From Photobacterium sp. TY1-4 (GTDB lineage Bacteria; Pseudomonadota; Gammaproteobacteria; Enterobacterales; Vibrionaceae): DNA of 64,000 nucleotides. The DNA is taken from NCBI RefSeq assembly GCF_025398175.1, contig NZ_CP099735.1, forward strand, positions 1,736,001-1,800,000, read 5' to 3'. Made by a program: the position numbers and the translations under genes. Positions 16,673 through 30,816 of this stretch are shown here, in pieces; positions within the stretch are counted from its first letter, which is position 1, and each line of letters begins with the position of its first letter. Under the pieces are notes generated by a model. It was not told where the DNA came from, made no database searches, and saw only the letters and a program-made list of their open reading frames with translations.

Positions 16673-16746
16673 GTGCGCGGCGCGTTATCAGGGCGCTCAG
16701 TGCTTTTGGCCTGTGAAGTGAGTCAGAACAATCAGGGAGAGTGAAG

Positions 16747-17802
16747 ATGAAAACTGTGATGTTGATGTTGTGTTGGTTCGGGATGATTTTGTCGAGCGCC
16801 CATGCTGCGCCTTTTCAATTACCGCATGACGGCAAGCAGCTGTCGGGACAGTATTTACCGCCACTTGGTGATGCGGTGCCAAGTGCCGTGGTGCTGTTTG
16901 TCCATGGTGATGGCGCGATGCCTGCGGATGCCCATGGTTATTATCCGCTCATTTGGCAAACCCTGCGGCGACATGGGATCGCGGTGGTGAGTTGGGCGAA
17001 ACCGGGTGTCGATGAGTCGGAAGGCAACTGGCTGGCGCAGACCATGGCTCAGCGGCAACAGGAAGTGCTGGCGGTGGCGAAGTGGGTCCAGGAGACCCAT
17101 GGGATTTCGCCGCAGCGCACCGGGCTGATCGGCTTTAGTCAGGCGGGCTGGGTGGTCCCGGCGCTGGCGGCCCGTGAAGATCGGTTCGGATTCGCAATCG
17201 GGATCGGATATGCAGTGAGCTGGATCGATCAGGGTCGCTATTACACCCGGCAAAAATATACACAACAAAGACTGAGTCCGGCGCAGATCGCTGCAAAGTT
17301 ACGTGAGTATGATGAGGAAATTGCATTTTTCCAAACCGAGCCGACTTACGCTGAGTATGCCGCCCTAGTTGGTGAGGCTGCAATGACGCCGGAGCGGTTC
17401 ACCTTTGTGATGAAGAACTTTCTCACGGATGCGCGGCAGGATTATCCGCGCATCCGCATCCCGACGTTACTCCTGTGGGGAGAAGACGATCTGAACGTCG
17501 ATGCTCGTCACGAATATCAATTCTGGCAGCGCCAGCCACATCCGAAGGTCACCACGGCATTGCTCACGCAAGCCAATCATGGCCTGTTCGATTCAGAAAT
17601 GTTTCCGCGGCAAGCCTTTAGCTGGTGGGAATGGCTGAAAATGACCTGGTTGCAGGAAGAAGCACTCGCGGAAGCGTTTTTGCCCACCCTGATGGGCTGG
17701 CTTGAGGGGCAGGGGATGCTCAACGGCCCTGACACAGCAGCGAATAAAAACGGCTGGGCGGTCGGTGTATGGGTGGGGGAGCGAAACAACACCACGCTTT
17801 AG
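16747..17802 (+). CDS. Exported alpha/beta hydrolase
   Basis: A 351-residue serine hydrolase with an N-terminal signal peptide ending in SSAHA. The nucleophile elbow is GFSQAGW, the acid is likely in LLWGEDDLNVDA, and the histidine in ANHGLFD. The oxyanion region VLFVHGDG is also present. The ATG at 16747 is used; the GTG 6 bp upstream is too close to the AGGGAG ribosome site. It probably acts in the periplasm on an ester or peptide-like compound. The neighbouring TetR/MFS pair and DUF2860 gene suggest detoxification, which is inference. Confidence 0.75.
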   Translation: MKTVMLMLCWFGMILSSAHAAPFQLPHDGKQLSGQYLPPLGDAVPSAVVLFVHGDGAMPADAHGYYPLIWQTLRRHGIAVVSWAKPGVDESEGNWLAQTMAQRQQEVLAVAKWVQETHGISPQRTGLIGFSQAGWVVPALAAREDRFGFAIGIGYAVSWIDQGRYYTRQKYTQQRLSPAQIAAKLREYDEEIAFFQTEPTYAEYAALVGEAAMTPERFTFVMKNFLTDARQDYPRIRIPTLLLWGEDDLNVDARHEYQFWQRQPHPKVTTALLTQANHGLFDSEMFPRQAFSWWEWLKMTWLQEEALAEAFLPTLMGWLEGQGMLNGPDTAANKNGWAVGVWVGERNNTTL

Positions 17803-17864
17803 CCATCAGCCCCGCTCGTTATGAAGCGGTCATATTCTAAGCCGTTTATTCTAGGTAGCTTGTC

Positions 17865-18497
17865 CTAAGCGGGATTTTCCTCGACGCCGACCAAGCGTAA
17901 GCAATCGGCAATCACCCCACGGATAAAGGCCTGATGGTCCGCTTCCTGCGAGGCGATAAGGTCGTCAGTTGCGCCGTGAACGCCCGCATAAATCAATAAT
18001 GCGGTAATTCGCGGTTGCGCCACAGTCCATGCGCCTGAGCGGGTCCCGTCTTCAAGCATGGCCTGGAGCTGATCGAGCATCGCGTTCTTATCCGGGTTGC
18101 TGCGGTTGTGGTGATGATGGTTGGTATACACAATGTCATGCAGGCGGTATGTCTCTGCATAGGCCTCAATCGTTTCCCGGATCCACGCCGCGAGTTTGCC
18201 AAGCCAGTCATCAGCTTCACAGTGGCTCATGCTGGTTTCAAGCCGGTTCAGAAACTGAGCGGTATAGCGCGCTCGCATCGCGGCCAGCAGCTCATTTTTG
18301 GACGCAAAGTAGTGATAGAAGGTGCCTTTGGCGACCCCTGCCAGCGCCACAATGTCATTGATCGGTGTTGAATCCACCCCTTTGGCAAGAAACAGCTGCT
18401 CAGCAGCGGACATCAACTCATCCAGACGGACTTCAGCAGGCTTGATACGCCGGGTTTTCGGGGCTTCCGGCTCCGGCCGGTTCGTTCTGTCTTCCAT
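17865..18497 (-). CDS. TetR-family transcriptional repressor
   Basis: A 210-residue TetR regulator. The N-terminal helix-turn-helix is clear (ELMSAAEQLFLAKG then INDIVALAGVAKGTFYHYFASKNELL), followed by a helical ligand-binding domain. I use the ATG at 18497 (MEDRTNRPE, AAGG upstream) because the longer frame begins inside the palindromic operator. An HHHH run in the ligand domain is unusual but may be chance. The divergent MFS exporter and the shared palindrome indicate that it represses that exporter and itself until a substrate binds. Confidence 0.85.
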   Translation of the reverse strand: MEDRTNRPEPEAPKTRRIKPAEVRLDELMSAAEQLFLAKGVDSTPINDIVALAGVAKGTFYHYFASKNELLAAMRARYTAQFLNRLETSMSHCEADDWLGKLAAWIRETIEAYAETYRLHDIVYTNHHHHNRSNPDKNAMLDQLQAMLEDGTRSGAWTVAQPRITALLIYAGVHGATDDLIASQEADHQAFIRGVIADCLRLVGVEENPA

Positions 18498-18555
18498 GGG
18501 CTTTGGCCTTGTTGTATCCGGTGATGCCTTGAATGCAATAAGTTGAATAATATTG

Positions 18556-18576
18556 ATTGACCGACGGTCGGTCAAT
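18556..18576. promoter_or_regulatory. Perfect palindromic operator of the TetR/MFS pair
   Basis: A 21-bp perfect dyad: ATTGACCGAC, a central G, then GTCGGTCAAT. It lies in the divergent region 46 bp upstream of the MFS start and 59 bp upstream of the TetR start. Size, symmetry and position are those of a TetR-family binding site. Confidence 0.85.
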
Positions 18577-18621
18577 GATTATTGTTGATATCTATTCTCA
18601 TTTGAGAGGGGGGGAGATCAA

Positions 18622-20166
18622 ATGCAACGCTATCAACTTCATGCACTGGTCATTGCGGCCTATCTCGGCACATTCTTAGCGACGTTGGACATCAGCATTG
18701 TCAACGTTGCCTTGCCGACGTTGCAGACCGCGCTTCATGCAGAGATGGCAGGGCTCCAGTGGATTGTGAACATTTACGCGATTGCCCTGTCGGCAGTGAT
18801 GCTGTCGGCCGGCCCGCTGGGAGATAAATATGGTCATAAGCGGGTATGGTTGGGGAGTGTCGCCCTGTTTGTATTTGGCTCGGTGATTTGCGCCGGTGCG
18901 GCTGAGCTGTCCACGCTGTTATGGGGCCGCGCCGTGCAGGGCATTGCGGGGGCGCTGTTGATCCCGGGGGCCATGCCGATTCTGACCCACGCCTTTCCGG
19001 ATCCCCGTCAGCGAGCCCGGGTGATTGGCGGATGGTCGGCATGCAGTGCGCTGGCGCTGATTTCCGGTCCGCTGCTTGGCGGGTTGCTGCTGGAACGCAG
19101 TGGTTGGTCGAGTATCTTTCTGGTTAACGTCCCGATTGGTCTGATTGCCCTTGTGCTGGGCGCCTGGGGGATCGCGGAGCGTCAACATCCCGATCAGGCG
19201 GCCTTTGATCCTGCCGGACAGGTCTTGAGTATGATCTGGCTTGGGCTGCTCAGCTATGGCTTGATTGAAATTGGCGAGCACGGCGCATCCACAACGCAAG
19301 TGCTGATGCCGCTCCTCGGCGCTGCGGTGGCTTTTGCTGCCTTTGTCTGGGTTGAATCAAGTGTCAAACGACCACTGTTTCCGATCGATCTGTTTCGTCA
19401 TCGTTCGCTGGCCGTGGCCAACCTGGCTTCCTTTGCTTTGGGCTTTTCGGCATATGCCAGTCTGTTCTTCCTGTCCCTGTATTTGCAGCAGGCGCAGGGG
19501 GACACCCCATCGATGGCCGGGTGGCATCTGATGCCACAATTTGCGGTGATGGGGATTTCATCGTTGCTGTTCGGCCGGATGGCGCATCGCTTTACGCTGA
19601 AAACACTGATGGTCGGCGGGTACGCTTTGGTTGGCATTTCCCTGTGCGCGATGGCCCTGTTTACGGCGAATACCCCTTATGTTGTGGTCGGCAGTGCCCT
19701 GGCTGTGTTGGGGCTGGGCATGGGGCTGTCTGTTCCCGCAACCGGGTTGATGGTCATGGGGCTGGCACCGGCAGAGCGCGCCGGGATTGCATCGGCCACC
19801 ATGAATGCGCTGCGGCAAATTGGCATGACGCTGGGCATCGCCGTGTTAGGCAGCCTCATGAGCCTTTACGCGATCCAGCAAATGGCAGAGGCAGCCAGCT
19901 CCGGCAATTTGCAGGATGCGGTTGCGCTTGCCCGGCGCGCCATTGTCCATTCCGAACTGCCTTCCGGGAACGAAGGGCTGTTGTCTGCTTATCGCACCGC
20001 CATGGCGAGCGGGTTCGGCATCGCCATGTTCTGCGCGGGCTTACTGAGCCTGCTGGCGGCTGGCCTGTTGGTGCTGTTTACCGAGGAGCGCCAAACCGTG
20101 CCGGTTGGCACTGAGGTTGAAAGCCAAACTACAGTTCATGAGAAACAGGAACATGCCCAGAGTTAG
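18622..20166 (+). CDS. MFS drug exporter, DHA2 (14-TM, EmrB/QacA) family
   Basis: A 514-residue major facilitator with about 14 TM helices. DHA2 hallmarks are TFLATLDISIVNVALPTL in TM1, GPLGDKYGHKRVWLG after TM2, and the antiporter motif in TM5 (ISGPLLGGLLLE). It exports hydrophobic drugs or signals across the inner membrane using the proton gradient. GGGGGAG precedes the ATG. Expression is likely governed by the divergent TetR through the 21-bp palindrome. The C-terminal tail runs into the edge of the mobile island, but no break in the reading frame is seen. Confidence 0.88.
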   Translation: MQRYQLHALVIAAYLGTFLATLDISIVNVALPTLQTALHAEMAGLQWIVNIYAIALSAVMLSAGPLGDKYGHKRVWLGSVALFVFGSVICAGAAELSTLLWGRAVQGIAGALLIPGAMPILTHAFPDPRQRARVIGGWSACSALALISGPLLGGLLLERSGWSSIFLVNVPIGLIALVLGAWGIAERQHPDQAAFDPAGQVLSMIWLGLLSYGLIEIGEHGASTTQVLMPLLGAAVAFAAFVWVESSVKRPLFPIDLFRHRSLAVANLASFALGFSAYASLFFLSLYLQQAQGDTPSMAGWHLMPQFAVMGISSLLFGRMAHRFTLKTLMVGGYALVGISLCAMALFTANTPYVVVGSALAVLGLGMGLSVPATGLMVMGLAPAERAGIASATMNALRQIGMTLGIAVLGSLMSLYAIQQMAEAASSGNLQDAVALARRAIVHSELPSGNEGLLSAYRTAMASGFGIAMFCAGLLSLLAAGLLVLFTEERQTVPVGTEVESQTTVHEKQEHAQS

Positions 20167-20235
20167 GGGGGTTAGTATAGAAAGGTTTAAAGTTTGGCTT
20201 GAGGGGCAGGGATTGCTCAGCTCCTGTTGGCACAG

Positions 20236-20426
20236 CGGTGCACCTCAGTTCCGAAAATTGACTAAAACCAAGGGTGGCTTCGCCAACTTAACCAGCTTGC
20301 TGAAGCTGCTCTATGCGGGGATGTTGAAGGCCCCCGAGAAGTGGACGCATCCTGTGCAAAACTGGAACCTGACGCTATCCCAGTTGAGCATCCACTTCCC
20401 GGACAGGGTGGATCAATATGTGGATC
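20236..20426 (+). pseudogene. Truncated IS256-family transposase relic (3' end)
   Basis: This segment encodes the last 60 or so residues of an IS256 transposase (KLTKTKGGFANLTSLLKLL and following) and is nearly identical to the end of the intact copy downstream. The 5' part is missing. Its remaining right end lies beyond the intact element at 21726-21769, so the intact element has inserted into this relic. The 69 bp between the MFS stop and this relic hold no gene. Confidence 0.85.
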
Positions 20427-21725
20427 GGTAGTGTTCAAAGTTTTGTGTCTTTTCCTACACTTACTGAAAAAGGGAGAGACACATCATGGCTGATAAATAC
20501 GAAATCGATATCCAGGCCTTTGCTAAGGCACTCCAATCCGGTCAAAATCTCAATGGCAAGGATGGCCTGCTCACGCCGCTGATCAAGCAGATCACTGAAG
20601 CTGCTCTGGGGGCAGAGCTGGACGAACACCTGACTAAAGAGACCTCGACCAACCGCAGAAATGGCTCATCTAAAAAGACCGTCAAGACATCTTCTGGTGA
20701 GTTTGAGTTGGAAACACCGAGAGACCGAAACGGCTCATTCGAGCCGCAGACGGTCAGGAAATACCAGACCCGCCTGACAGACGAAATGGAAGGTAAGATC
20801 CTCTCCCTGTTCGCTCTGGGTAACAGCTATCAGAACATCCGAGAGCATCTCTTAGATCTATACGGCATGCGCATCTCAAATGGCACGATCAACGCCATCA
20901 CCGACCGCCTAGTGCCTGAACTCAGAGCATGGCAGGAAAGGGATCTGGAGCCGCTTTATCCCTTCGTCTGGTTAGATGCAATTCACTATAAAATCAAGGA
21001 GAACGGTCGCTTCATCTCCAAAGCTGTATACACCATTTTGGGCCTGACCGTTGAGGGCAAGAAGGAGCTTCTGGGACTGTATCTGTCTGAAAATGAAGGT
21101 GCACATTACTGGCTCAGTGTATTGACCGACTTGCAGAACCGCGGCGTTAAAGACATTCTGATCGCCTCAGTTGATGGCCTGAAAGGCTTCCCTGAAGCAA
21201 TCGAAACCATTTATCCCGAGACAGAGGTGCAGGTCTGTGTCATTCACCAGATCCGCAACTCCATGAAGTACGTCGCTAGCAAAAACCAGAAGGCCTTTAT
21301 GGCCGATCTCAAGTGTGTCTACAAGGCTGCAACACAGAATGCTGCGGAGCAGGCGCTGGACGAGCTGGAAGCAAAATGGGGCAAGCAGTACCCGTTAGTC
21401 ATCAAATCCTGGCGCAGCAAGTGGGACAATCTGTCGGTATACTTCAAGTATCCCGAGCAGATCCGGCGGGCCATCTACACTACCAATGCGGTTGAGGCGG
21501 TGCACCGGCAGTTCCGCAAGCTGACTAAAACCAAGGGCGGATTCGCCAACGAAACCAGCTTGCTGAAGCTGCTCTATGCGGGGATGTTGAAGGCCTCCGA
21601 AAAGTGGACGCATCCGGTTCAGAACTGGAACCTGACACTATCCCAGTTGAGCATCCACTTCCCGGACAGGGTCGATCAATATGTGGATCTGTGACTTACA
21701 CTGACACAGAACTATGAACACCCTC
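20427..21725 (+). mobile_element. IS256-family insertion sequence, intact, with 8-bp target duplication
   Basis: A 1299-bp element. The left terminal repeat includes GTGTTCAAAGTTTTGTGTC (20431-20449) and the right end GACACAGAACTATGAACAC (21703-21721), inverted with few mismatches. An 8-bp direct repeat TGTGGATC flanks it at 20419-20426 and 21726-21733, as expected for this family. The target lies inside the 3' end of a related IS256 copy. Confidence 0.88.
20486..21694 (+). CDS. IS256-family transposase
   Basis: A full-length 402-residue mutator-type transposase. The DDE residues are visible in FVWLDAIHYK, IASVDGLKGF and TNAVEAVHRQF. The ATG has GGGAGAG upstream, and the frame is uninterrupted, so the element may be active. 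It moves its own DNA by recognising the 20-odd-bp terminal repeats described for the element. Confidence 0.92.
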   Translation: MADKYEIDIQAFAKALQSGQNLNGKDGLLTPLIKQITEAALGAELDEHLTKETSTNRRNGSSKKTVKTSSGEFELETPRDRNGSFEPQTVRKYQTRLTDEMEGKILSLFALGNSYQNIREHLLDLYGMRISNGTINAITDRLVPELRAWQERDLEPLYPFVWLDAIHYKIKENGRFISKAVYTILGLTVEGKKELLGLYLSENEGAHYWLSVLTDLQNRGVKDILIASVDGLKGFPEAIETIYPETEVQVCVIHQIRNSMKYVASKNQKAFMADLKCVYKAATQNAAEQALDELEAKWGKQYPLVIKSWRSKWDNLSVYFKYPEQIRRAIYTTNAVEAVHRQFRKLTKTKGGFANETSLLKLLYAGMLKASEKWTHPVQNWNLTLSQLSIHFPDRVDQYVDL

Positions 21726-21769
21726 TGTGGATCTGTGACTTACGCAGACACAGAACTATGAACACCCTC
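21726..21769 (+). repeat. Right end of the older IS256 relic
   Basis: This stretch repeats the last 44 bp or so of the intact element almost exactly, including a second copy of the terminal repeat at 21747-21765. It is the part of the older copy that ended up beyond the younger insertion; the first 8 bp are the target duplication. From 21770 to 21847 nothing is recognised. Confidence 0.85.
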
Positions 21770-21847
21770 TTAGTGTCTAGTATTGATAGTGCAGATTATT
21801 TACAGAGTCAAAAGTTTTGCCATTGCCTCTCCCGATTTACTTTAAAA

Positions 21848-22528
21848 TTAATACTGAATTTTGTTTGGGGTTAAAGGCTTTCGAGACCAGTGTTCGTCAA
21901 TAGTTTGAGTAAAATCAGCCCTTACTAATTTGGCTCTTTTCTCAAGCCAGTTCCCTTTATCCTTCCTCAAATAAATACCTTCAATTTTATTAGCACCATA
22001 ATATGACGGTTGGTCTAACATCAATTTCAAGCCTTTGAGACTAAATCTACCTTGATTCAACGGTGAAATAATGGGAATACCTACAGTCGCTAGAACCTCA
22101 TTCCTTCTTTTAACAGAATAAAATTTGCCTGCTGAACGACTATAAAGATCAAAGCAAATAAACCAATTTGGTAGCTTTTCATAACCAATTGAGTGCTCGG
22201 CATAACACCATTCACCAAACAGTATTAGATCTTTATCAAGCACTAGTTTAAGTTGATACTCATATTGTTTTATCCATTTCCACAAATGCTTAAACTGACC
22301 ACCTACATCTTTATCTATCCAAGCCCCTCGATTTTGTGCTCTTAATTCCCCACGCTGATCAATTGAGAAGCCCACATTAGCCCCATCGACCTTCTCTTCA
22401 ATAACTAGCTCTGAAGATAAGAAAGATTCCACATCGAATGGTGGCAATATTTTATCATCCCTAGGTTCCCTATCACCTAACCAATCTATATGAGGAGTAT
22501 GAGGAAATCTGAAAAAATCTGGCATCAT
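21848..22528 (-). CDS. RNA ligase family nucleotidyltransferase (Rnl-like)
   Basis: A 226-residue protein with all core nucleotidyltransferase motifs of ATP-dependent RNA ligases: motif I EEKVDGANVGF with adenylation lysine K46, motif Ia region ELRAQNRG (61-68), motif III ILFGEWCY (102-109), IIIa FICFDLYS (123-130), motif IV EGIYLRKD (183-190) and motif V KRAKLVRADF (197-206). It would join RNA ends through enzyme-AMP and RNA-adenylate steps. There is no extra C-terminal domain. The start at 22528 overlaps the PIN gene stop as ATGA, so it is the third gene of a coupled operon. The longer frame to 22564 is less likely. An RNA ligase next to a nuclease suggests RNA repair or end modification; the target is unknown. 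Confidence 0.82.
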   Translation of the reverse strand: MMPDFFRFPHTPHIDWLGDREPRDDKILPPFDVESFLSSELVIEEKVDGANVGFSIDQRGELRAQNRGAWIDKDVGGQFKHLWKWIKQYEYQLKLVLDKDLILFGEWCYAEHSIGYEKLPNWFICFDLYSRSAGKFYSVKRRNEVLATVGIPIISPLNQGRFSLKGLKLMLDQPSYYGANKIEGIYLRKDKGNWLEKRAKLVRADFTQTIDEHWSRKPLTPNKIQY

Positions 22529-23067
22529 TTTGCCTTCTTCTTTTCCCAGTTTTGTTTGTTCCACTCATCAATAATTTGGTGAACATGAACGTTAGCTGCA
22601 ACTAACTCGGTCTCCCAATCATACCAATCGGTATCGCAAGCATTGATTATCTTGCATTCAGGATCGTCTTCATTTGCCTTAATACAAGCGGCGACCATTT
22701 TTGTATCTGCCAGGTCATGAACCACTGTTTTCAAAGGCTCATTCAAGACGGCAACTTTGTCAGTGTATGCGGGATTGGCATCCCATTCAATATCGATATA
22801 GTCAATCTGTTGTCTATCTATCTTATCGAATAGAACGCGCCTACCGTAATCTTGGGCGGTTAGCTTATTTTCGTATTCGCCTATTATTTCATAATCGAAA
22901 TCCACGACCATACGATGACTGCTCATATCAAACTCTACGAGCCAATCAAGTACTTTCTTGGCCTCATCCGGGTCTTCAACTGGATGATTTTCTGAGCGGA
23001 AAGGAGATTCAGGATGCTCTCCACTTGCAACAATGAGCACGTTAGTATCAATCACCTGGCTACTCAT
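22525..23067 (-). CDS. PIN-like domain nuclease
   Basis: A 180-residue protein with a PIN-like arrangement of acidic residues: D7 in QVIDTNVLI at the end of the first strand, E60/E64 after FDYEIIGEYENKL, D121 in HDLADTKMVAA and D145/D147 in NACDTDWYDW. PIN domains are metal-dependent ribonucleases, often toxic effectors that cut tRNA or mRNA. It is longer than a typical VapC (about 130) and has no adjacent antitoxin gene; instead it overlaps an ATPase upstream and an RNA ligase downstream, both by ATGA. I infer an RNase controlled by the ATPase. Activity is not shown by sequence alone. Confidence 0.7.
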   Translation of the reverse strand: MSSQVIDTNVLIVASGEHPESPFRSENHPVEDPDEAKKVLDWLVEFDMSSHRMVVDFDYEIIGEYENKLTAQDYGRRVLFDKIDRQQIDYIDIEWDANPAYTDKVAVLNEPLKTVVHDLADTKMVAACIKANEDDPECKIINACDTDWYDWETELVAANVHVHQIIDEWNKQNWEKKKAK

Positions 23068-24341
23068 GGGCGAGCTCTCTCTGCTTTCATTCGTTGCATT
23101 GTCTCTTGGACTTGCTTTCTCACTTCACCGGTAGCATCGCCGAAGAAATTTTTTGGCCATTCATCAATTCGCCCAAACTTATCCATCTTCAGAGTTTTCA
23201 ATACAGCATCAGATTCTTCACGCTCAACAAAATACAATGCACATTGATCTGGCTTGGCTTTTTGGGTAGCAACTAAAGTCTGCATACGTCTGAATAAGTG
23301 TTCGGAATGTGTCTCAACGATAAATTGAACATCACGTTCTAAGCTGACTTCCAAGAACAACTCAGCAAGTAATGACTGAGCCAGAGGATGCAAATGGATT
23401 TCAGGTTCTTCTAAGATAATCGTTGACTTTTCTGGTGCGAAATATGCCAATACAAGCACAGGAAGCACTTGCGACACCCCTGTACCAACATCAATTAGAT
23501 TTGCCGCTACACCATCTCGATGAACAAGTATGTTGTAGTTACCAGCACCAATATGTTTGACCTCAAGCTTATCGGCGATGCGCATTTTTTTTAGCCACTT
23601 TGATACTGCTTCAACTAGGCCATCGCTCTTTTTGCCTGATGTATTATTACTAGTTAACAATGCAAAAACGGCCTCGTTACCATCAACGCCGATGATTCCT
23701 GGTCGAGTTCTATTCCATATATACGTTCTTCTAGGCTTGCTTCTGAGAGGGCCTAAGTAAGAGATAGCTTCAAGTTCTCTTATGATCGACAAGCTGATAT
23801 CTTCTACGTCACTTCCACTTGGCCCCATATTATAAAGTGCGTCTTTAGAAAACGATACACCACGTTCAGGTGAATACTCCCTACTCTTCAGACTAGTTCG
23901 AGTTTCATTAGGCAAATAAATATTAAAAGCCCCCTTATCCGAACGTTGGGCTCTATACCAATTTTTGCCATCATTACTGAGTTGAAGTAGATCAATTACT
24001 GGGCTTTGCTTCGAGTCCTGTTTATAGTCAACTTTCAGAAAACTTCTACCTTGTCTTCCGTCAACATCCATTTCAATAGAAATTTTCCTGTTTTCAGGAT
24101 CTTTCGTTAATAGATCGTCAAATGATCCCATGTCCACATAGTCATTTGCCTCGTCTCCACCCAGATTTAAATGAATCGTTCTATCTGGGGATGTCGCAGT
24201 CTGCTTCATTAGCAACAGGCTTTGTAAGAGGCTCGACTTCCCTGTTGAGTTTTCACCAAGCAACAGTGTTACCGGAGAAAAGTAAACATCATCAGAACTT
24301 CGCCATGCCTTGAAATTCTCTAATTTGATTCTTTTAAACAT
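23064..24341 (-). CDS. AAA/OLD-like ATPase with DUF3696-type C-terminus
   Basis: A 425-residue SMC/OLD-like ATPase. Walker A is GENSTGKSS (29-37), the ABC-type signature is DVGTGVSQVLP (282-292), Walker B is STIILEEPEIHLHP (304-317) and the H-loop is FIVETHSEHL (338-347). The C-terminus (FVEREESDA...GRIDEWPKNFF) fits DUF3696. There is no TOPRIM nuclease domain, so the effector is likely the PIN protein encoded 4 bp overlapping downstream. AAAGGA precedes the ATG. It is the first gene of the ATPase-PIN-ligase operon. ATPases of this kind act as sensors in several anti-phage systems (Septu and PARIS use related ones). Confidence 0.85.
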   Translation of the reverse strand: MFKRIKLENFKAWRSSDDVYFSPVTLLLGENSTGKSSLLQSLLLMKQTATSPDRTIHLNLGGDEANDYVDMGSFDDLLTKDPENRKISIEMDVDGRQGRSFLKVDYKQDSKQSPVIDLLQLSNDGKNWYRAQRSDKGAFNIYLPNETRTSLKSREYSPERGVSFSKDALYNMGPSGSDVEDISLSIIRELEAISYLGPLRSKPRRTYIWNRTRPGIIGVDGNEAVFALLTSNNTSGKKSDGLVEAVSKWLKKMRIADKLEVKHIGAGNYNILVHRDGVAANLIDVGTGVSQVLPVLVLAYFAPEKSTIILEEPEIHLHPLAQSLLAELFLEVSLERDVQFIVETHSEHLFRRMQTLVATQKAKPDQCALYFVEREESDAVLKTLKMDKFGRIDEWPKNFFGDATGEVRKQVQETMQRMKAERARP

Positions 24342-24660
24342 TAAATTTCCTTTGTTCTCTATAGTGTCGCTCGTTCAACGATGACGCTAGTAAGACTTTG
24401 CTGTGTGAAACCCACTCTACCGCTTAACACTGAGCACTTCAAAGTAACTATTCTCTTAATATACAAATAGTTTGCTGCTATTCAGTATATCGTAAAGCCA
24501 ATATAAATCCGAGTGCGCATTATTCACTGTACAACTAGTTGAATTCAGGGGGAGTAAAAGCTCCAAGGCGAGAGCGTGAGTTAATTAATTGTAAAATCAC
24601 TACTCAAAAGGCATATTTGAATCTACAAGAAGAGTGATTTTGAACCATCTGCCACTGGTG
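24342..24660. other. Upstream region of the ATPase-PIN-ligase operon
   Basis: A 319-bp A+T-rich stretch without a convincing gene. It must contain the minus-strand promoter of the three-gene operon. I could not pick out one promoter with confidence. Confidence 0.5.
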
Positions 24661-25775
24661 CCAGGTGTACAGCCTGGTCAATAATTGAACAGTTGATGCG
24701 TAAATATTTACTTGATTACCCCTAATACTCAGCCCCCTGAACTATACTAAATGTAGGTGAGTTCATGAGGGTAAAGTCATGGCTAAAAATCAAGTTCAGT
24801 TTCAAAAAGGCATTTCTATTCATCAGTTTATGACTATGTATGGTACTGAGGAACAATGCCAGAAACGATTGTTCGAGATGCGTTGGCCGACGGGCTACCG
24901 TTGCCCTAACTGCCGCCATGATAAATATTGTCAGTTGAAATCACGCGCCTTATTTCAGTGTAATCAGTGCCATCATCAAGCTTCGTTGATATCAGGGACG
25001 CTATTTGCCCACTCTAAACTGTCTTTAACGGTCTGGTTTCTGGCCATTTACCTGATAACACAAGAAAAGAACGGTATCTCTGCTCTTGAGTTGTCCAGAC
25101 AACTCGGTGTTTCATACAACACGGCATGGCGAGTAAAACAGAAACTCATGCAGGCCATGAAAGAGCGAGATGATGAAACGCCTTTAGATGGTTACGTCCA
25201 AATTGACGATGCCTACTGGGGCGGTGTGAAGCGTGGTGTCCGTGGCCGTGGCGCTAAAGGGAAGCGTCCATTTGTTGCAGCCGTATCCATGAACGAAGAG
25301 GGTCACCCAATACGAATGCGCTTTACCGCTGTTGATGGGTTTAAGAAAGCAGAGCTGACGCGTTGGGCTAAGGCTCATTTAAGGCCGAAATCGCTGGTCA
25401 TTTCTGATGGGTTGGCTTGTTTCCGTGGTATCGAAGATGCAAAAATCTTTCACCATGCCATTGTAACTGGCGGTGGTGCGGATTGCGTAGAATTGCCCTA
25501 TTTCAAGTGGGTTAACACCATGATAAGTAATGTGAAAAATGCAATGCATGGCACTTATCACTCAATCAAAAACAAACATTTACCGCGCTATCTTGCCGAG
25601 TTTTGCTTCAAGTTTAATCGACGGTTTGATTTAGAAAAGATGCTTGAGCAGTTAGTTTATTCCAGTATTCAAACAGCGCCGATGCCTCAGCGTCTTCTTA
25701 AGCTAGCTGAGGTTCGATGGTAATCAAGAATATTTATTGGTGAGCAAAAAGTGAACATACGTGCTATCACCCTGG
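24661..25775 (+). mobile_element. IS1595-family (ISXO2-like) insertion sequence
   Basis: The element encloses the transposase gene. Likely ends are CCAGGTGTACAGC at 24661-24673 and GCTATCACCCTGG at 25763-25775, which are inverted with 10 of 13 matches, and the inner flanks share TTGATTACC in inverted orientation. No target duplication could be identified, so the ends are approximate. Confidence 0.6.
24779..25723 (+). CDS. IS1595-family transposase
   Basis: A 314-residue ISXO2-type transposase. The N-terminal zinc ribbon has CPNC (positions about 42-45) and CNQC pairs, followed by a helix-turn-helix and the catalytic domain with QIDDAYWGG and VISDGLACF acidic residues and the NVKNAMHGTYHSI region. 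GAGGG precedes the ATG at 24779. The frame is intact. The element flanks the ATPase-PIN-ligase operon on the side opposite to the IS256 copies. Confidence 0.9.
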   Translation: MAKNQVQFQKGISIHQFMTMYGTEEQCQKRLFEMRWPTGYRCPNCRHDKYCQLKSRALFQCNQCHHQASLISGTLFAHSKLSLTVWFLAIYLITQEKNGISALELSRQLGVSYNTAWRVKQKLMQAMKERDDETPLDGYVQIDDAYWGGVKRGVRGRGAKGKRPFVAAVSMNEEGHPIRMRFTAVDGFKKAELTRWAKAHLRPKSLVISDGLACFRGIEDAKIFHHAIVTGGGADCVELPYFKWVNTMISNVKNAMHGTYHSIKNKHLPRYLAEFCFKFNRRFDLEKMLEQLVYSSIQTAPMPQRLLKLAEVRW

Positions 25776-25824
25776 TGTAAGATCTAAGCAGGAATGGGGC
25801 ATTTTCAAGTTAGAGCGTTATGCT

Positions 25825-26148
25825 TTACTTAGCGACTCGCTCAATCGTGAAGCCAGACTCATCACTACAGTGAATAAAAATGGTGCCATCTCCTTTGAGT
25901 GGATGGTCAAACTCGATTTTGCCTCGGCCGCACAGTTCATCCCCTTCACATATGCCCTGCCAGCTAAACTCTAACACTGGAAATCGAGTTGAAACTCGGA
26001 CGTCCATCCATCCTTTAACAGCCCCAAAAACGAATTGTCCTAATCCATCGTTACTGAATTCAAAGTAGCCCGGTTCAACCAAGTCGACATATTCCTGGCT
26101 CCAATTCGACATCGACGTTATTTTCCATCTACCAATGAAATCATGCAT
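25825..26148 (-). CDS. Small hypothetical protein (about 107 aa)
   Basis: A 107-residue protein beginning MHDFIGRWKITSMSNW, with a likely beta-rich fold (FEFSNDGLGQFVFGAV, FPVLEFSWQG, GTIFIHCSDESGF). I recall similar small bacterial proteins of unknown function. The start at 26148 is chosen over longer options because GGGG lies 8 bp upstream and family members begin at this point. It stands alone between the IS1595 element and rsgA, in the same A+T-rich island, so it is probably cargo. Confidence 0.6.
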   Translation of the reverse strand: MHDFIGRWKITSMSNWSQEYVDLVEPGYFEFSNDGLGQFVFGAVKGWMDVRVSTRFPVLEFSWQGICEGDELCGRGKIEFDHPLKGDGTIFIHCSDESGFTIERVAK

Positions 26149-26383
26149 GACGTTATCCCCAAATAAATGCTCCGTTCTAGGCACTTTATATTCATTAGAG
26201 ACGCTTGTGCAAATCAATGGCGGCTGAAGTGTGACTTCGAATTGTGGTTGCAAGTAACAGGGGATTTTCATGAGGGAAATACCTGCCTCCGCTCCAATAA
26301 AACGAAGACAGGCATATGAGTTAACGGCGAGGCCGAGCGACCTCGCCAAGGACTGAATCGTCCTGATTGGTTTTGCTTGTCGT

Positions 26384-27427
26384 TTAGTATCCCTTCTTCA
26401 TCAGGCGTTTCTCCGACACGATGATGCGGTTCGATTTGTGGATCTGCTTAAATCGGGCGCGTTGTTCATGCAAAGCACTGCTATTTCTCGCTTGCTCGCG
26501 GAGCAGTTTGAAATAGTTGTTCAGTCGGCGCTGGTCAAGGGCGCCGGTTTCCAGTGCATCTTGAATGGCGCAGCCCGGCTCGCTTTGATGCTGACAGTCA
26601 CTGAATCGGCACGCTTTGCTGAGTGCTTCGACATCGGCGAAGGTTTCACTCACCCCGGTTTCGCAGTCGGCGAGCTGCAATTCGCGCATTCCGGGGGTAT
26701 CGATCAGTACCGCGCCTGATGGCATGAAATGCAGCGACCGCGACGTCGTGGTGTGGCGTCCCTTGCTGTCGTCTTCGCGGATTGAGCCGGTTTGCTGAAT
26801 TGACTCGCCCATCAGGGTATTGACCAGCGTGGATTTCCCCACGCCGGATGAGCCCATGAAGGCGACGGTTTTGCCGCTTTTACACCAGAGGTTTAAGCCA
26901 TCGCAGCTGGTGGGCTCTAGCGCATTGACGGCTTCTACCATCAGCATCGGGTCGATGGCCTGGACGGCAGCGCGTTTGTCATCAGCGTCCTCACACAAGT
27001 CGGCTTTGGTCAGTACCACCACGGGCTCGACGTTGTATTCGCGCGCCAGGGCCAGGTAGCGTTCAATCCGGCTGAGGTTAAAGTCGTCATTGAGCGAGCA
27101 GACGATAAACAGGGTATCGACGTTGGCGGCGATATACTGCTCGGCCACTTTGCTGCCGGGCGCCCGGCGGCTGAACAGCGAGGTTCGTTCCAGTTGCCGG
27201 ACAAACTGGTGGTCGTGATCGAGCAAGATCCAGTCGCCGACGGTCATCGCGGGCAGGCGATGGTGGATCGGCAGTTGGTGCTCACCTTGCTCGGTCTGAA
27301 CCACGTAGCCGCTGCGGTGATGGGCCAGGATCCGACCGGTGATGCTGGTTTCCAGATCGTCGAGTGTCAGTTGTTGTTGAAACACAGGTTGCCAGCCAAG
27401 TTGGCTGAGTGTCATGGTTGAATTCAT
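26384..27427 (-). CDS. rsgA: RsgA-type circularly permuted GTPase
   Basis: A 347-residue YjeQ/RsgA GTPase, which helps mature the 30S ribosomal subunit. An N-terminal OB-like part is followed by a circularly permuted G domain in the order G4 (VVLTKADL), G1 ([12 protein letters not shown]) and G3 (DTPGMREL), and by the zinc knuckle [14 protein letters not shown]. Many gammaproteobacteria have a second rsgA-like gene besides the core one; whether this is the core or the extra copy cannot be told from the window. It marks the return to backbone-like base composition after the island. Confidence 0.88.
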
Positions 27428-27571
27428 TGCTTTTCCCTACGCATGCAGAATCGCATTGCAAAGCGCTCTGCGCGCAATCAACAGAAAGTATGAGGGTCAA
27501 ATGAATAGGCATAGACCCCGGTCAGAAAACACCGGGCAAGAGGGAAGGAGAGAGGGGAAGAAGTTGCTGTT

Positions 27572-27733
27572 ATACCAATCAAAGTCAGTCAGTGATCAGA
27601 AATAGCGCAGGAAAAATGTTTGAGAACAAGGCAGAATTTTTCGATAAGTAGTTATTCTACAATCAAAAATTCTAACGCAGTTATCGAGCATTTTAACAAG
27701 CTAGGATGACCAGTGATTTACTGCGATTGGTAT
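27572..27733. mobile_element. MITE-like palindromic element with ATACCAATC ends
   Basis: A 162-bp non-coding element with perfect 9-bp inverted ends (ATACCAATC at 27572-27580 and GATTGGTAT at 27725-27733). The similarity between arms continues inward with mismatches, through GAATTTTT and AAAAATTC, so the whole element can fold into one long hairpin. It sits upstream of rsgA. I recall similar sequences repeated in Vibrionaceae genomes, but the copy number here cannot be judged. Confidence 0.75.
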
Positions 27734-27853
27734 TAGTTCAGCGTTGAGTGTCCGCTCTGCTTCTCAATATTTGCCGGGTGGGTTTTGAATACAATCATCA
27801 GAATCTCCTTACAGGTATGAATGGGTGTGTGCAGATAGTAGCACATTTGTTAC

Positions 27854-27953
27854 AAGATGCCAGCCATTGGCTTAAGGTGTCAGCTTTTGACCCAAGGTAT
27901 CGGCCATTGACTCAAGGTGTTCGCTTTTGACTCAAGGCTTCAACCGTTGGCTC
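27854..27953. repeat. Five tandem copies of a degenerate 20-bp repeat
   Basis: Units start at 27854, 27874, 27894, 27914 and 27934, each beginning AAGG or AAGA and ending in TTGACTC-like sequence (for example AAGGTGTTCGCTTTTGACTC). A sixth partial unit begins at 27954. The block lies in the 581-bp space between rsgA and the second DUF2860 gene and codes for nothing convincing. Confidence 0.8.
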
Positions 27954-28008
27954 AAGGTGCGTGTGTTGGGCAACACTGGCACCTTAAGCGCATGTGGATC
28001 AGAGCGGA

Positions 28009-28992
28009 TTAAAACTTATAGCTCAGACCGACACCCAAAAACAGCTGGGTTTCATTGTAGAAATCGATATTGGAGTCGACCACACTGTAGCCGGCCAGGG
28101 CGTTCAGGCCCCAGTTTTCCCAGTCCATGAACTGGTCGTATTCGTAGGCGAAGTTGAGCCCGACTTCATGGTCTTCCTGCGTTTTGCCGAACACCGGATT
28201 GGCTTCATCAAAATCGGCCAATGCATATTCCCCGGAAATCGCGTAGCCGTGGCGTCCCTGCTTGGTCAGATAGGTTAAACCGACGCCGTAGCGGGTCATC
28301 GACATCGCATCGCCATCGGCGGAAAAGCGATTGATGGTCAGCTCTGGTTGGAGGGTGGAAGTCTCCCCGGTGCTTACTGCCCAGGCGAGCCGGGAATAAA
28401 TACCGTCGCCGTCGCGCTGAAGCTGGTTGAGATCGCTTGGCGTCAGTCCGGGAATACTGGTGCCGGATTGCTCGCTGTCTATATCCCGGTCATAGATGGC
28501 CAGATCGAGCGAAATCCCCTGGTCCAGAATATTGTTGTACTGGAATCGCAGCGCATTCCCGGAAACATCCGTTTCTTTTCTGGCCTGATTGACGACAAAG
28601 GGATCCTGCCAGGTTTCATCATCCACAATGGTCGGCAAGACAGAAAAGGCCATGGTTGAGTTGTGGGCGGTTTCGAACTGATAGCCAATTTCGAAGGCAA
28701 TTAAGCCGGTGGCAATATCTTCCCGCGACGTCCCGAGGTAGACCAGCTGGTTGTTCTCGGCCCCGAAGGTGTAGCGAAACTGGCCCAGCGGGAACAGGGT
28801 GACGCCGGATTCAGTGTCAGCTTCGCTGTTGAGCGGCGCTTCTTTCACGGCATTATCGGTATCAAAATTGGTTTCTTGCTGGGCATATCCAAGCAGTAGC
28901 GAGACTTCGCCACTGAGCCCGGGTGGCCCGAGTGCGGCCGTCGCCTGTGCGCTGACCATGGCGGTGAGCCCTGCTAGCCAATAATATTTCAT
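28009..28992 (-). CDS. DUF2860-type outer-membrane beta-barrel-like protein, second copy
   Basis: A 327-residue paralogue of the protein at 15716-16672. It has a signal peptide (cut after about ATA at residue 19), the shared blocks GLSGE, TNFDTDNAVKE, LNSE and KETDVSGNALRFQY, and ends in an aromatic residue (SYKF) as outer-membrane barrels do. CAGGAG precedes the ATG. It is divergent from the BCCT gene at 29347. Function is unknown. Confidence 0.75.
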   Translation of the reverse strand: MKYYWLAGLTAMVSAQATAALGPPGLSGEVSLLLGYAQQETNFDTDNAVKEAPLNSEADTESGVTLFPLGQFRYTFGAENNQLVYLGTSREDIATGLIAFEIGYQFETAHNSTMAFSVLPTIVDDETWQDPFVVNQARKETDVSGNALRFQYNNILDQGISLDLAIYDRDIDSEQSGTSIPGLTPSDLNQLQRDGDGIYSRLAWAVSTGETSTLQPELTINRFSADGDAMSMTRYGVGLTYLTKQGRHGYAISGEYALADFDEANPVFGKTQEDHEVGLNFAYEYDQFMDWENWGLNALAGYSVVDSNIDFYNETQLFLGVGLSYKF

Positions 28993-29346
28993 ATGGTCTC
29001 CTGTTCACGGTTCACAAATGCAATACGTTTATTCAACAAAGTGCCTAGATATACGTGATCCAGGGCAAATTGAAAAGTGTTTGCGCCGCGCGAGAATATA
29101 AAATTTAACCCGGTATACGTTTTGAGCCTTCTTTTTGTTTTATTGAAGGAATTCCAATCCGTTCAGTGAATCTATCGCCTGAAAAACATACGAAAACTCG
29201 ACTTGATTCACTAAACGGCGAAATATTCTTTTTGACATCAAACCTTCACGCCGTTTCGACCGTTTTCACCTTGCATTGCAAAAACGCATCGTTTTTCATG
29301 AACTATCTCAACAGATAGGCAACAAATTGCGAACTAAGAGTATTCT
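28993..29346. other. Divergent promoter region with an inverted repeat
   Basis: This 354-bp gap between the DUF2860 and BCCT genes contains CCGTTCAGTGAATC at 29159-29172 and GATTCACTAAACGG at 29205-29218, inverted with one mismatch and 32 bp apart. It may bind a regulator of either gene. No gene is seen. Confidence 0.45.
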
Positions 29347-30816
29347 ATGCAGATTCTAACGCACCAATCCCAGCGCTTGATGCTGGTCTCGGCACTGGTC
29401 GCCGTGCTGTTTACTGTGTTTCCCGCCGTGAGTGTGTATCAGTTAGCTGAATTTACCCAGTGGGTGATTGAACGGTTTGATGATCAGGTGATTCAGCTCT
29501 CGACCCTGGCGCTGCTGGCTTGTCTGGCGATTGCCTTGAGCCCGCTTGGCGAGAAGCGACTGGGGCAGACGACACCGGAGTTTGGTTTTTTGCCTTGGAT
29601 AATCATGCTGTTTACTACCGGCATGGGCTCCGGGCTGATTTTCTGGGGCGTGGCCGAGCCGGTGTTTCACCTTGCCAATATGCCGCCGGTGACCCAGTAC
29701 GGCGACAGCAAAGATACGGCGCTGGCGCTGACCTATTTTCATTGGGGTGTGCATGCCTGGAGTCTGTATGCGCTGGCGGGGCTGGTGATGGCCTGGCTGG
29801 CCTATGAAAAACAGCGCCCGATGCGGGTCAGTGCGTCCTTTATCGGTGAGCATCGGCCGAAATGGCTCTCCGTGGTCGACTTGATTGCGGTGTTGGCGAT
29901 TTTGTTCGGCATTGCCGGGGTACTGGCCAACACCATGGCGCTGGTGGAGCAGGGTGTACGCCATGTGTTTGGCCTGGAAGGGGATTTAACCGCTTTTCGG
30001 ATTGTGATGACCGGTTTGATTGGCGTGCTGTTTACCACCTCAAGTGCGCTGGGGCTGAAAAAGGGGATCAAGCGCCTGAGCAGCTTCAACCTCTGGCTGA
30101 TGGTGCTGCTGTTTGTGGTGGTGTTTCTCAATGTCGATGGCGGCGCGGTGTTGTCGCGGATGGGCAGCTCACTGCTGGCGTACGTGCAGATGATGCCGGA
30201 GGTGTCGGTCGGGGTGATTGACGGCGGCCGGCAGTGGAGCCAGGGCTGGACGGTGATTTACCTGGTGTGGTGGATTGCCTGGACGCCGTTCGTCGGACCG
30301 TTTATTGCCCGGATCAGCCGCGGCCGTACCATCCGTCAGTTTCTGCTCTGCACGGTGATCATTCCGACCCTGGCCTCTGTGGTGTGGTTCTCCGGCTTTG
30401 CCGGGGCAGTGTTTGAAAGCGCGTATCTGACCGAGGTGGTCAACGCGGTGAATCAGGATTACACCAAAGGCCTGTTTACCTTCTTCTCGTATCTGCCCTG
30501 GAGCGATGTGCTGTCGGTCGGCGCGTTGCTGCTGTTGCTGACCTTCGTGATTTCCAGCGCCGATTCGGCGATTTATGCTGCCGGGATGCTGACCGACGAT
30601 ACCCGGACCAGCAGCAAAGTGAGCTGGTCGGTGATTGTCGTGACCATGGGTATGGCGTTGGCGGTGTTTAACGATGTGGATTTGAACAAACAGGTGGCCA
30701 TTGCCGGGGCAATCCCGTTTACGCTGGTGTTGCTGGGTCAGGCGGTTGCAGCCCTGGCAGAGCACTGGGTGCCGTCTTACCGGCGCTATATTCTCAGCGC
30801 TCCGGACAAGGCGTAG
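29347..30816 (+). CDS. BCCT-family osmolyte transporter
   Basis: A 489-residue, 12-TM BCCT carrier. The signature region reads GWTVIYLVWWIAWTPFVG then FIARISRGRTIRQF, closer to typical glycine betaine/choline carriers than the DddP-linked one (it keeps PFVG). GMGSGLIFWGVAEPV in the early helices fits. The N- and C-terminal tails are short, so a long osmosensing tail is absent. No enzyme gene is linked; it probably imports a compatible solute. A strong terminator follows. Confidence 0.87.
   Translation: MQILTHQSQRLMLVSALVAVLFTVFPAVSVYQLAEFTQWVIERFDDQVIQLSTLALLACLAIALSPLGEKRLGQTTPEFGFLPWIIMLFTTGMGSGLIFWGVAEPVFHLANMPPVTQYGDSKDTALALTYFHWGVHAWSLYALAGLVMAWLAYEKQRPMRVSASFIGEHRPKWLSVVDLIAVLAILFGIAGVLANTMALVEQGVRHVFGLEGDLTAFRIVMTGLIGVLFTTSSALGLKKGIKRLSSFNLWLMVLLFVVVFLNVDGGAVLSRMGSSLLAYVQMMPEVSVGVIDGGRQWSQGWTVIYLVWWIAWTPFVGPFIARISRGRTIRQFLLCTVIIPTLASVVWFSGFAGAVFESAYLTEVVNAVNQDYTKGLFTFFSYLPWSDVLSVGALLLLLTFVISSADSAIYAAGMLTDDTRTSSKVSWSVIVVTMGMALAVFNDVDLNKQVAIAGAIPFTLVLLGQAVAALAEHWVPSYRRYILSAPDKA

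Follow-up and report, generated by a model that had tools for sequence, protein, structure and literature searches.

RNA-cutting defence is usually seen as a form of suicide or of dormancy, with RNA ligases being the means by which phages counter it. As set out in the portions of PMC2610378 drawn on here, PrrC is kept silent by a linked type I restriction-modification (R-M) enzyme and is countered by phage RNA repair, T4 mending PrrC damage with Pnk and Rnl1, while RloC excises a nucleotide, which is proposed to defeat such repair. A second source, PMC12839542, reports in the part drawn on here that AriB of PARIS cuts tRNA, and it places pairs of an OLD-ABC ATPase and a PIN-endoRNase inside BREX operons, where they are proposed to be backup effectors; from its main text the word "ligase" is absent. 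The pairing of an OLD-ABC ATPase with a PIN protein is already known, both from this source, as far as the part drawn on here goes, and as the PADLOC candidate HEC-03.

In the locus described here the same two partners are followed by a gene for an ATP-dependent RNA ligase. It lies in a stretch of 64,000 nucleotides from Photobacterium sp. TY1-4, hereafter the window, and its features are collected in Table 1. An initial annotation of this DNA had claimed three translationally coupled reading frames, and the ORF coordinates confirm all three together with a 4-bp ATGA overlap at both the ATPase/PIN and the PIN/ligase junctions; the numbering of D7 in the PIN protein and K46 in the ligase is likewise correct. 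An alternative GTG start for the ligase lies further upstream at 22564, and it is the ATG at 22528 that yields the 4-bp overlap. The operon had also been called A+T-rich, and its G+C content of 0.36-0.43 does lie below the 0.50-0.62 of the left flank between 16000 and 21749; on the right, G+C climbs from 0.38 to 0.49 and reaches at least 0.54 only past 26250 (all in 500-base windows). The IS256 and IS1595 elements said to flank the operon are borne out by the domains of their transposases. The IS256-type element, in the region 20246-21769, has three further full-length copies in the genome that are 100% identical to it; a 184-base fragment stands immediately before the element in the window, and on its far side a 44-base end repeat occurs twice. 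A candidate RNA element at the operon was rejected, as the two Rfam matches found between 19500 and 27600 both lie far under their gathering scores. Between 21600 and 24800, six promoter-like sites were found against 7.6 expected, and six terminator-like sites against 2.0 expected, the latter on both strands with none placed at the operon end.

Table 1. Positions in the window of the three-gene operon and of genes flanking it
Feature	Position	Strand	Remarks
OLD-type ABC ATPase with DUF3696	23064..24341	-	425 aa; predicted sensor/regulator
PIN-fold RNase candidate	22525..23067	-	180 aa; predicted effector
ATP-dependent RNA ligase	21848..22528	-	226 aa; catalytic domain only
IS256-type (Mutator family) transposase	20486..21694	+	downstream of operon; PF00872 2e-100
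IS1595-type transposase	24779..25723	+	upstream of operon; PF12762 1.3e-33, PF12760 2.4e-14
RsgA-type GTPase gene	26384..27427	-	beyond IS1595 element; PF03193 1.1e-50

The identities proposed for the three proteins are supported by Pfam, PADLOC and predicted folds taken together. In Pfam the ATPase matches AAA_15 (1.4e-26), AAA_21 (1.2e-20) and DUF3696 (1e-14), and among 142 PADLOC families its top match is HEC-03B (1.9e-90), the AriA models of PARIS also being matched (2.7e-29); its best sequence match in the PDB is the OLD family nuclease 6p74 (6.3e-10). The Walker and H-loop residues are invariant, or almost so, across 96 sequences, that of the window included. In a tree the ATPases fall into two deep classes, and the window copy belongs to class I.

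The second protein finds few relatives by sequence. Pfam gives no match in the 180-aa protein, in three of its relatives or in the small protein of locus L053 described below, a PDB sequence profile search with the 180-aa protein found no PIN entry, and the sole PADLOC match at E values up to 1 is a weak one to HEC-03A (3.2e-6). As these sequence searches give no PIN match, the assignment rests on the predicted structure, which has the PIN fold that had been proposed for it and VapC proteins as its best structural matches, and on the acidic residues D7, E64, D121 and D145, invariant in 97 alignment rows. The protein is predicted to be a PIN-fold RNase candidate.

The third protein is an RNA ligase with its core motifs, as had been claimed. 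It matches PF09414 (1.8e-29), and residues K46, D48, G49, E106, E183 and K200, the core of the nucleotidyltransferase motifs, are invariant in 64 alignment rows. Its AlphaFold2 model (mean pLDDT 92.7) has the RNA ligase fold, with 53 Foldseek matches at E values of 0.001 or below and a probability of 1.00 to RNA ligases; the top match is 1xdn, the trypanosome RNA editing ligase 1 (5.3e-8), accompanied by the Naegleria nick-sealing ligase and archaeal RNA ligases and then by T4 RNA ligases 2 and 1. At its length the protein extends scarcely beyond the catalytic domain.

To follow the trio through other genomes, a scan for relatives of the ligase was used. It gave 348 loci, of which the best 80 were taken, and their genes were called with profiles built for each of the three proteins. 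The expectation that the trio stays together in homologues is upheld, as 71 of these best 80 of 348 loci keep the order ATPase, PIN, ligase; all three genes are also found in order in four loci from a 99-genome scan, the window included. This recurrence of gene order is more than chance would give, and the possibility that the three are chance neighbours was ruled out on this basis. The taxon labels of the 71 trio loci cover 12 phyla, one of them archaeal (Methanolobus), with three loci unlabelled. A clear PIN gene is present in 63 loci. Their first junction, scorable in 62, is a 4-bp overlap in 43, another overlap in 10 and no overlap in 9, and the second is a 4-bp overlap in 49, another overlap in 11 and none in 3.

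The exceptions differ in kind: two keep PIN sequence on contigs that begin inside or just upstream of the PIN gene, a third is on a contig starting 574 bases ahead of the ligase, two have partial ATPase matches and no PIN, and three have different neighbours, without ATPase and PIN. In another (L053:1891-4389), the genes ahead of a relative of the ligase encode a different OLD-type ATPase, one without DUF3696, and a 165-aa protein that begins with a DTS motif and may be PIN-like as well; in this case the ligase may have joined another type of system. Between the ATPase and PIN genes at L008:6081-7492 lies an additional frame, about 297 aa long and transposase-like by eye.

The view from the PIN gene is somewhat different. 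In six scans, PIN-family matches were found in 4/99, 16/398, 6/369, 8/282, 4/294 and 2/196 genomes, each count including the genome of the window or of a seed. Thirty PIN loci were sampled from the 398-, 369-, 282-, 294- and 196-genome scans (15, 3, 8, 3 and 1, respectively), leaving out window and seed genomes, repeats and the 99-genome scan. An ATPase adjoins the PIN gene in all 30, and a ligase adjoins it in 19 (10, 1, 6, 1 and 1 per scan) and is absent in 11. The concern that homologues might occur separately is thus answered in two ways: ATPase and PIN hold together throughout, but the ligase is not obligate. ATPase-PIN pairs without ligase are evidently viable, and their existence fits the two-gene PADLOC candidate HEC-03; the ligase is a conserved add-on and not an obligate antitoxin. 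Ten of the 11 ligase-less loci could be seen in the ATPase tree, five of them forming one branch (support 95) and the rest being scattered. A replacement gene for the missing ligase was sought by eye and rejected, no plus-strand frame of at least 80 aa after PIN being shared by the 11 loci.

The histories of the three genes differ as well. Across 83 three-gene loci, pairwise distances of ATPase and PIN are closely correlated (Spearman 0.85), against 0.38 for ATPase and ligase and 0.35 for PIN and ligase, and none of 500 permutations attained any of the three values. Median identity between the two classes is 0.33 for the ATPase, 0.25 for the PIN protein and 0.49 for the ligase, the last being about the same as the ligase median within a class (0.50). 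On trees of 85 loci, 18 of which belong to class I, the number of changes in class label is one for the ATPase, three for PIN and nine for the ligase. Placing all class I ligases in a single clade is rejected (log-likelihood lower by 411, p 5.2e-88), and doing so for the class I PIN proteins is not (p 0.33). ATPase and PIN form a single unit of inheritance, and the conflict in trees and distances means that the ligase has been swapped several times between ATPase-PIN lineages while being retained as the third gene. Such free movement would not be expected of a tight partner binder, and suggests that the ligase could act on the RNA product of its partners.

Genomic neighbourhoods were surveyed by running PADLOC on 20 chosen flanking proteins and then BLAST with 15 as seeds. 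The defence-island setting that had been proposed holds for part of the family: restriction or defence genes occur in the flanks of 29 of the best 80 of 348 loci, a raw count in which 9 of the 29 themselves supplied seeds. BREX genes adjoin the trio in seven loci, on both sides in six, and in L073 the order is BrxC, PglX, ATPase, PIN, ligase, BrxHI, PglZ, BrxA. Six loci have type I R-M genes ahead of the ligase (two of them without ATPase and PIN), three have type III-like genes in that position, and three have a DruE-like gene behind the ligase (one without ATPase and PIN). In the remaining 51 of the best 80 of 348 loci the seeds matched no restriction or defence gene, and in a scan of 80 of the 81 neighbours picked there no PADLOC or Pfam family matched more than 2 of these 80, so that no defence family recurs among them; several are metabolic genes. 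The setting does not extend to the window copy, as a PADLOC scan of the seven proteins neighbouring the operon (16741-30816) gave no match at 1e-10, which places this copy outside the company of known defence systems. In the archaeal BREX locus, a second OLD-type ATPase (L043:3381-4682; PADLOC HEC-01A, 3.4e-201) is seen just upstream of the trio, so that two ATPase modules lie side by side.

The related claim of mobile defence cargo fared similarly. In the same-genus genome G043 (L085:3634-15923) TraN and TraG genes flank the trio, which is cargo of a conjugative element; nearby is an integrase that adjoins a dusA-like gene; for the window copy, however, the two flanking transposons are the sole sign of mobility. 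On viral contigs, 51 loci with ligase relatives were found, 22 of them on contigs longer than 100 kb, and within the fetched flanks the trio is present in only three (L127, L129 and L130); L177 is on the same contig as L127, and L126 begins at the ligase. The large IMG/VR viral contigs L131-L161 carry ligase relatives without the trio in the fetched flanks. Such relatives on large viral contigs are as expected of phage RNA repair enzymes.

Taken together, these data allow a working model to be drawn, in which the trio is a backup anti-phage module resembling PrrC and PARIS, made of an obligate ATPase-PIN pair and an RNA ligase able to reseal RNA cuts; we favour this reading over the others, at about even odds. 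The ATPase would hold the PIN RNase silent and free it on sensing infection. For copies embedded in restriction or BREX operons, the trigger would probably be the blocking of DNA restriction by a phage, on the pattern of PrrC and PARIS; the position of these copies suggests firing when the restriction or BREX systems are inhibited. The freed PIN enzyme would then cut an RNA of the cell, most probably a tRNA or rRNA, and translation would stop. Cleavage by a metal-dependent PIN nuclease yields 5'-phosphate and 3'-hydroxyl ends. ATP-grasp ligases require such ends according to the section of PMC7824862 drawn on here. An ATP-dependent ligase could join the products without end healing, which would explain why the operon holds no kinase or phosphatase, unlike the repair by T4 Pnk and Rnl1. 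The ligase would act on the cut RNA and not on its partner proteins, either mending leaky cuts or enabling a cell to recover once its phage is cleared.

Processing or circularisation of cellular RNA, in a stress or RNA-turnover module with no anti-phage role, would agree with most of the sampled loci having no recurrent defence neighbour (51 of the best 80 of 348), with archaeal RNA ligases being among the closest solved ligases, and with the link between an archaeal ligase and sRNA circularisation given in the part of PMC9014305 drawn on here. This reading is nonetheless unlikely, as occurrence in the six scans is patchy even with window and seed genomes included, the G043 trio is situated between transfer genes, and copies lie beside BREX and R-M genes. 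Damage could also be permanent by design, the PIN nuclease removing at least one nucleotide and the ligase sealing the shortened RNA, so that a defective tRNA beyond phage repair would result. Cutting once is the usual description of PIN nucleases, and ATPase-PIN pairs without ligase exist, both of which make this quite improbable. In its favour, the ligase is kept in 19 of the 30 sampled loci with its catalytic motif residues intact, its relatives on large viral contigs imply that phages likely carry sealing enzymes, and the removal of a nucleotide by RloC is proposed, in the cited portions of PMC2610378, to defeat phage repair.

Another possibility is that the ligase is a protein antitoxin that binds and silences PIN in toxin-antitoxin style. 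A small gene beside a toxin-like RNase, with reading frames that overlap in most loci, has this appearance, but such a role is very improbable: an obligate antitoxin is ruled out by the 11 of 30 PIN genes with no ligase beside them, the PIN distances are tracked by those of the ATPase (0.85) and not of the ligase (0.35), and the enzyme motifs of the ligase are invariant throughout its 64 rows. Returning to the backup anti-phage module, recurrence of the trio in distant bacteria and an archaeon, sometimes within anti-virus clusters, suggests a defence system that may repair its own damage. That it is a self-healing immune module, in which an RNase is deployed with its own ligase, damage is reversible by design and the ligase is an exchangeable cassette recruited several times, is put forward tentatively, as somewhat less than an even chance. 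If true, a widespread host operon would combine a cutting with a sealing enzyme, in some cases within BREX or restriction operons, and reversal would be built into the weapon. Two questions become testable: whether it is the ligase that determines if a cell dies or recovers, and which RNA is the target.

Among the literature matches listed, none describes the ATPase-PIN-ligase trio, and an earlier mention is quite possible: Burroughs and Aravind (2016) reportedly deal with RNA repair, and Krishnan (2020) is said to treat ABC ATPases. The combination had not been recognised as a named system, which stands for the ligase, matched by no PADLOC model, but not for the ATPase-PIN half, which matches the candidate HEC-03 and for which pairs are in print in the part of PMC12839542 drawn on here.

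In comparing the trio with described systems, VapBC shares the PIN fold, VapC proteins being the best structural matches; however, the PIN partner in the window is a 425-aa ATPase, the neighbours of PIN being this ATPase and the ligase, with no small VapB-like gene between the three genes. PARIS is similar in combining an OLD-type ATPase sensor, whose AriA models match the window ATPase, with a separate nuclease, but AriB is a Toprim nuclease, whereas the nuclease here is a PIN-like model with no PADLOC AriB match and is joined by a ligase. PrrC and RloC likewise place an RNase under ABC ATPase control, and PrrC is R-M-linked with damage reversible by an RNA ligase; in the cited portions of PMC2610378, however, both functions of PrrC reside in one polypeptide and the ligase is phage-encoded. 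Here there are three separate genes, a PIN nuclease and a host-encoded ligase, and the Pfam matches of the ATPase are to ATPase models and DUF3696. There is likeness too to PADLOC HEC-03, with the window ATPase resembling HEC-03B and the adjacent PIN protein weakly resembling HEC-03A, and to the OLD-ABC/PIN pairs of BREX operons in the cited part of PMC12839542, which have the same two partners; in the present locus an RNA ligase follows the PIN gene.
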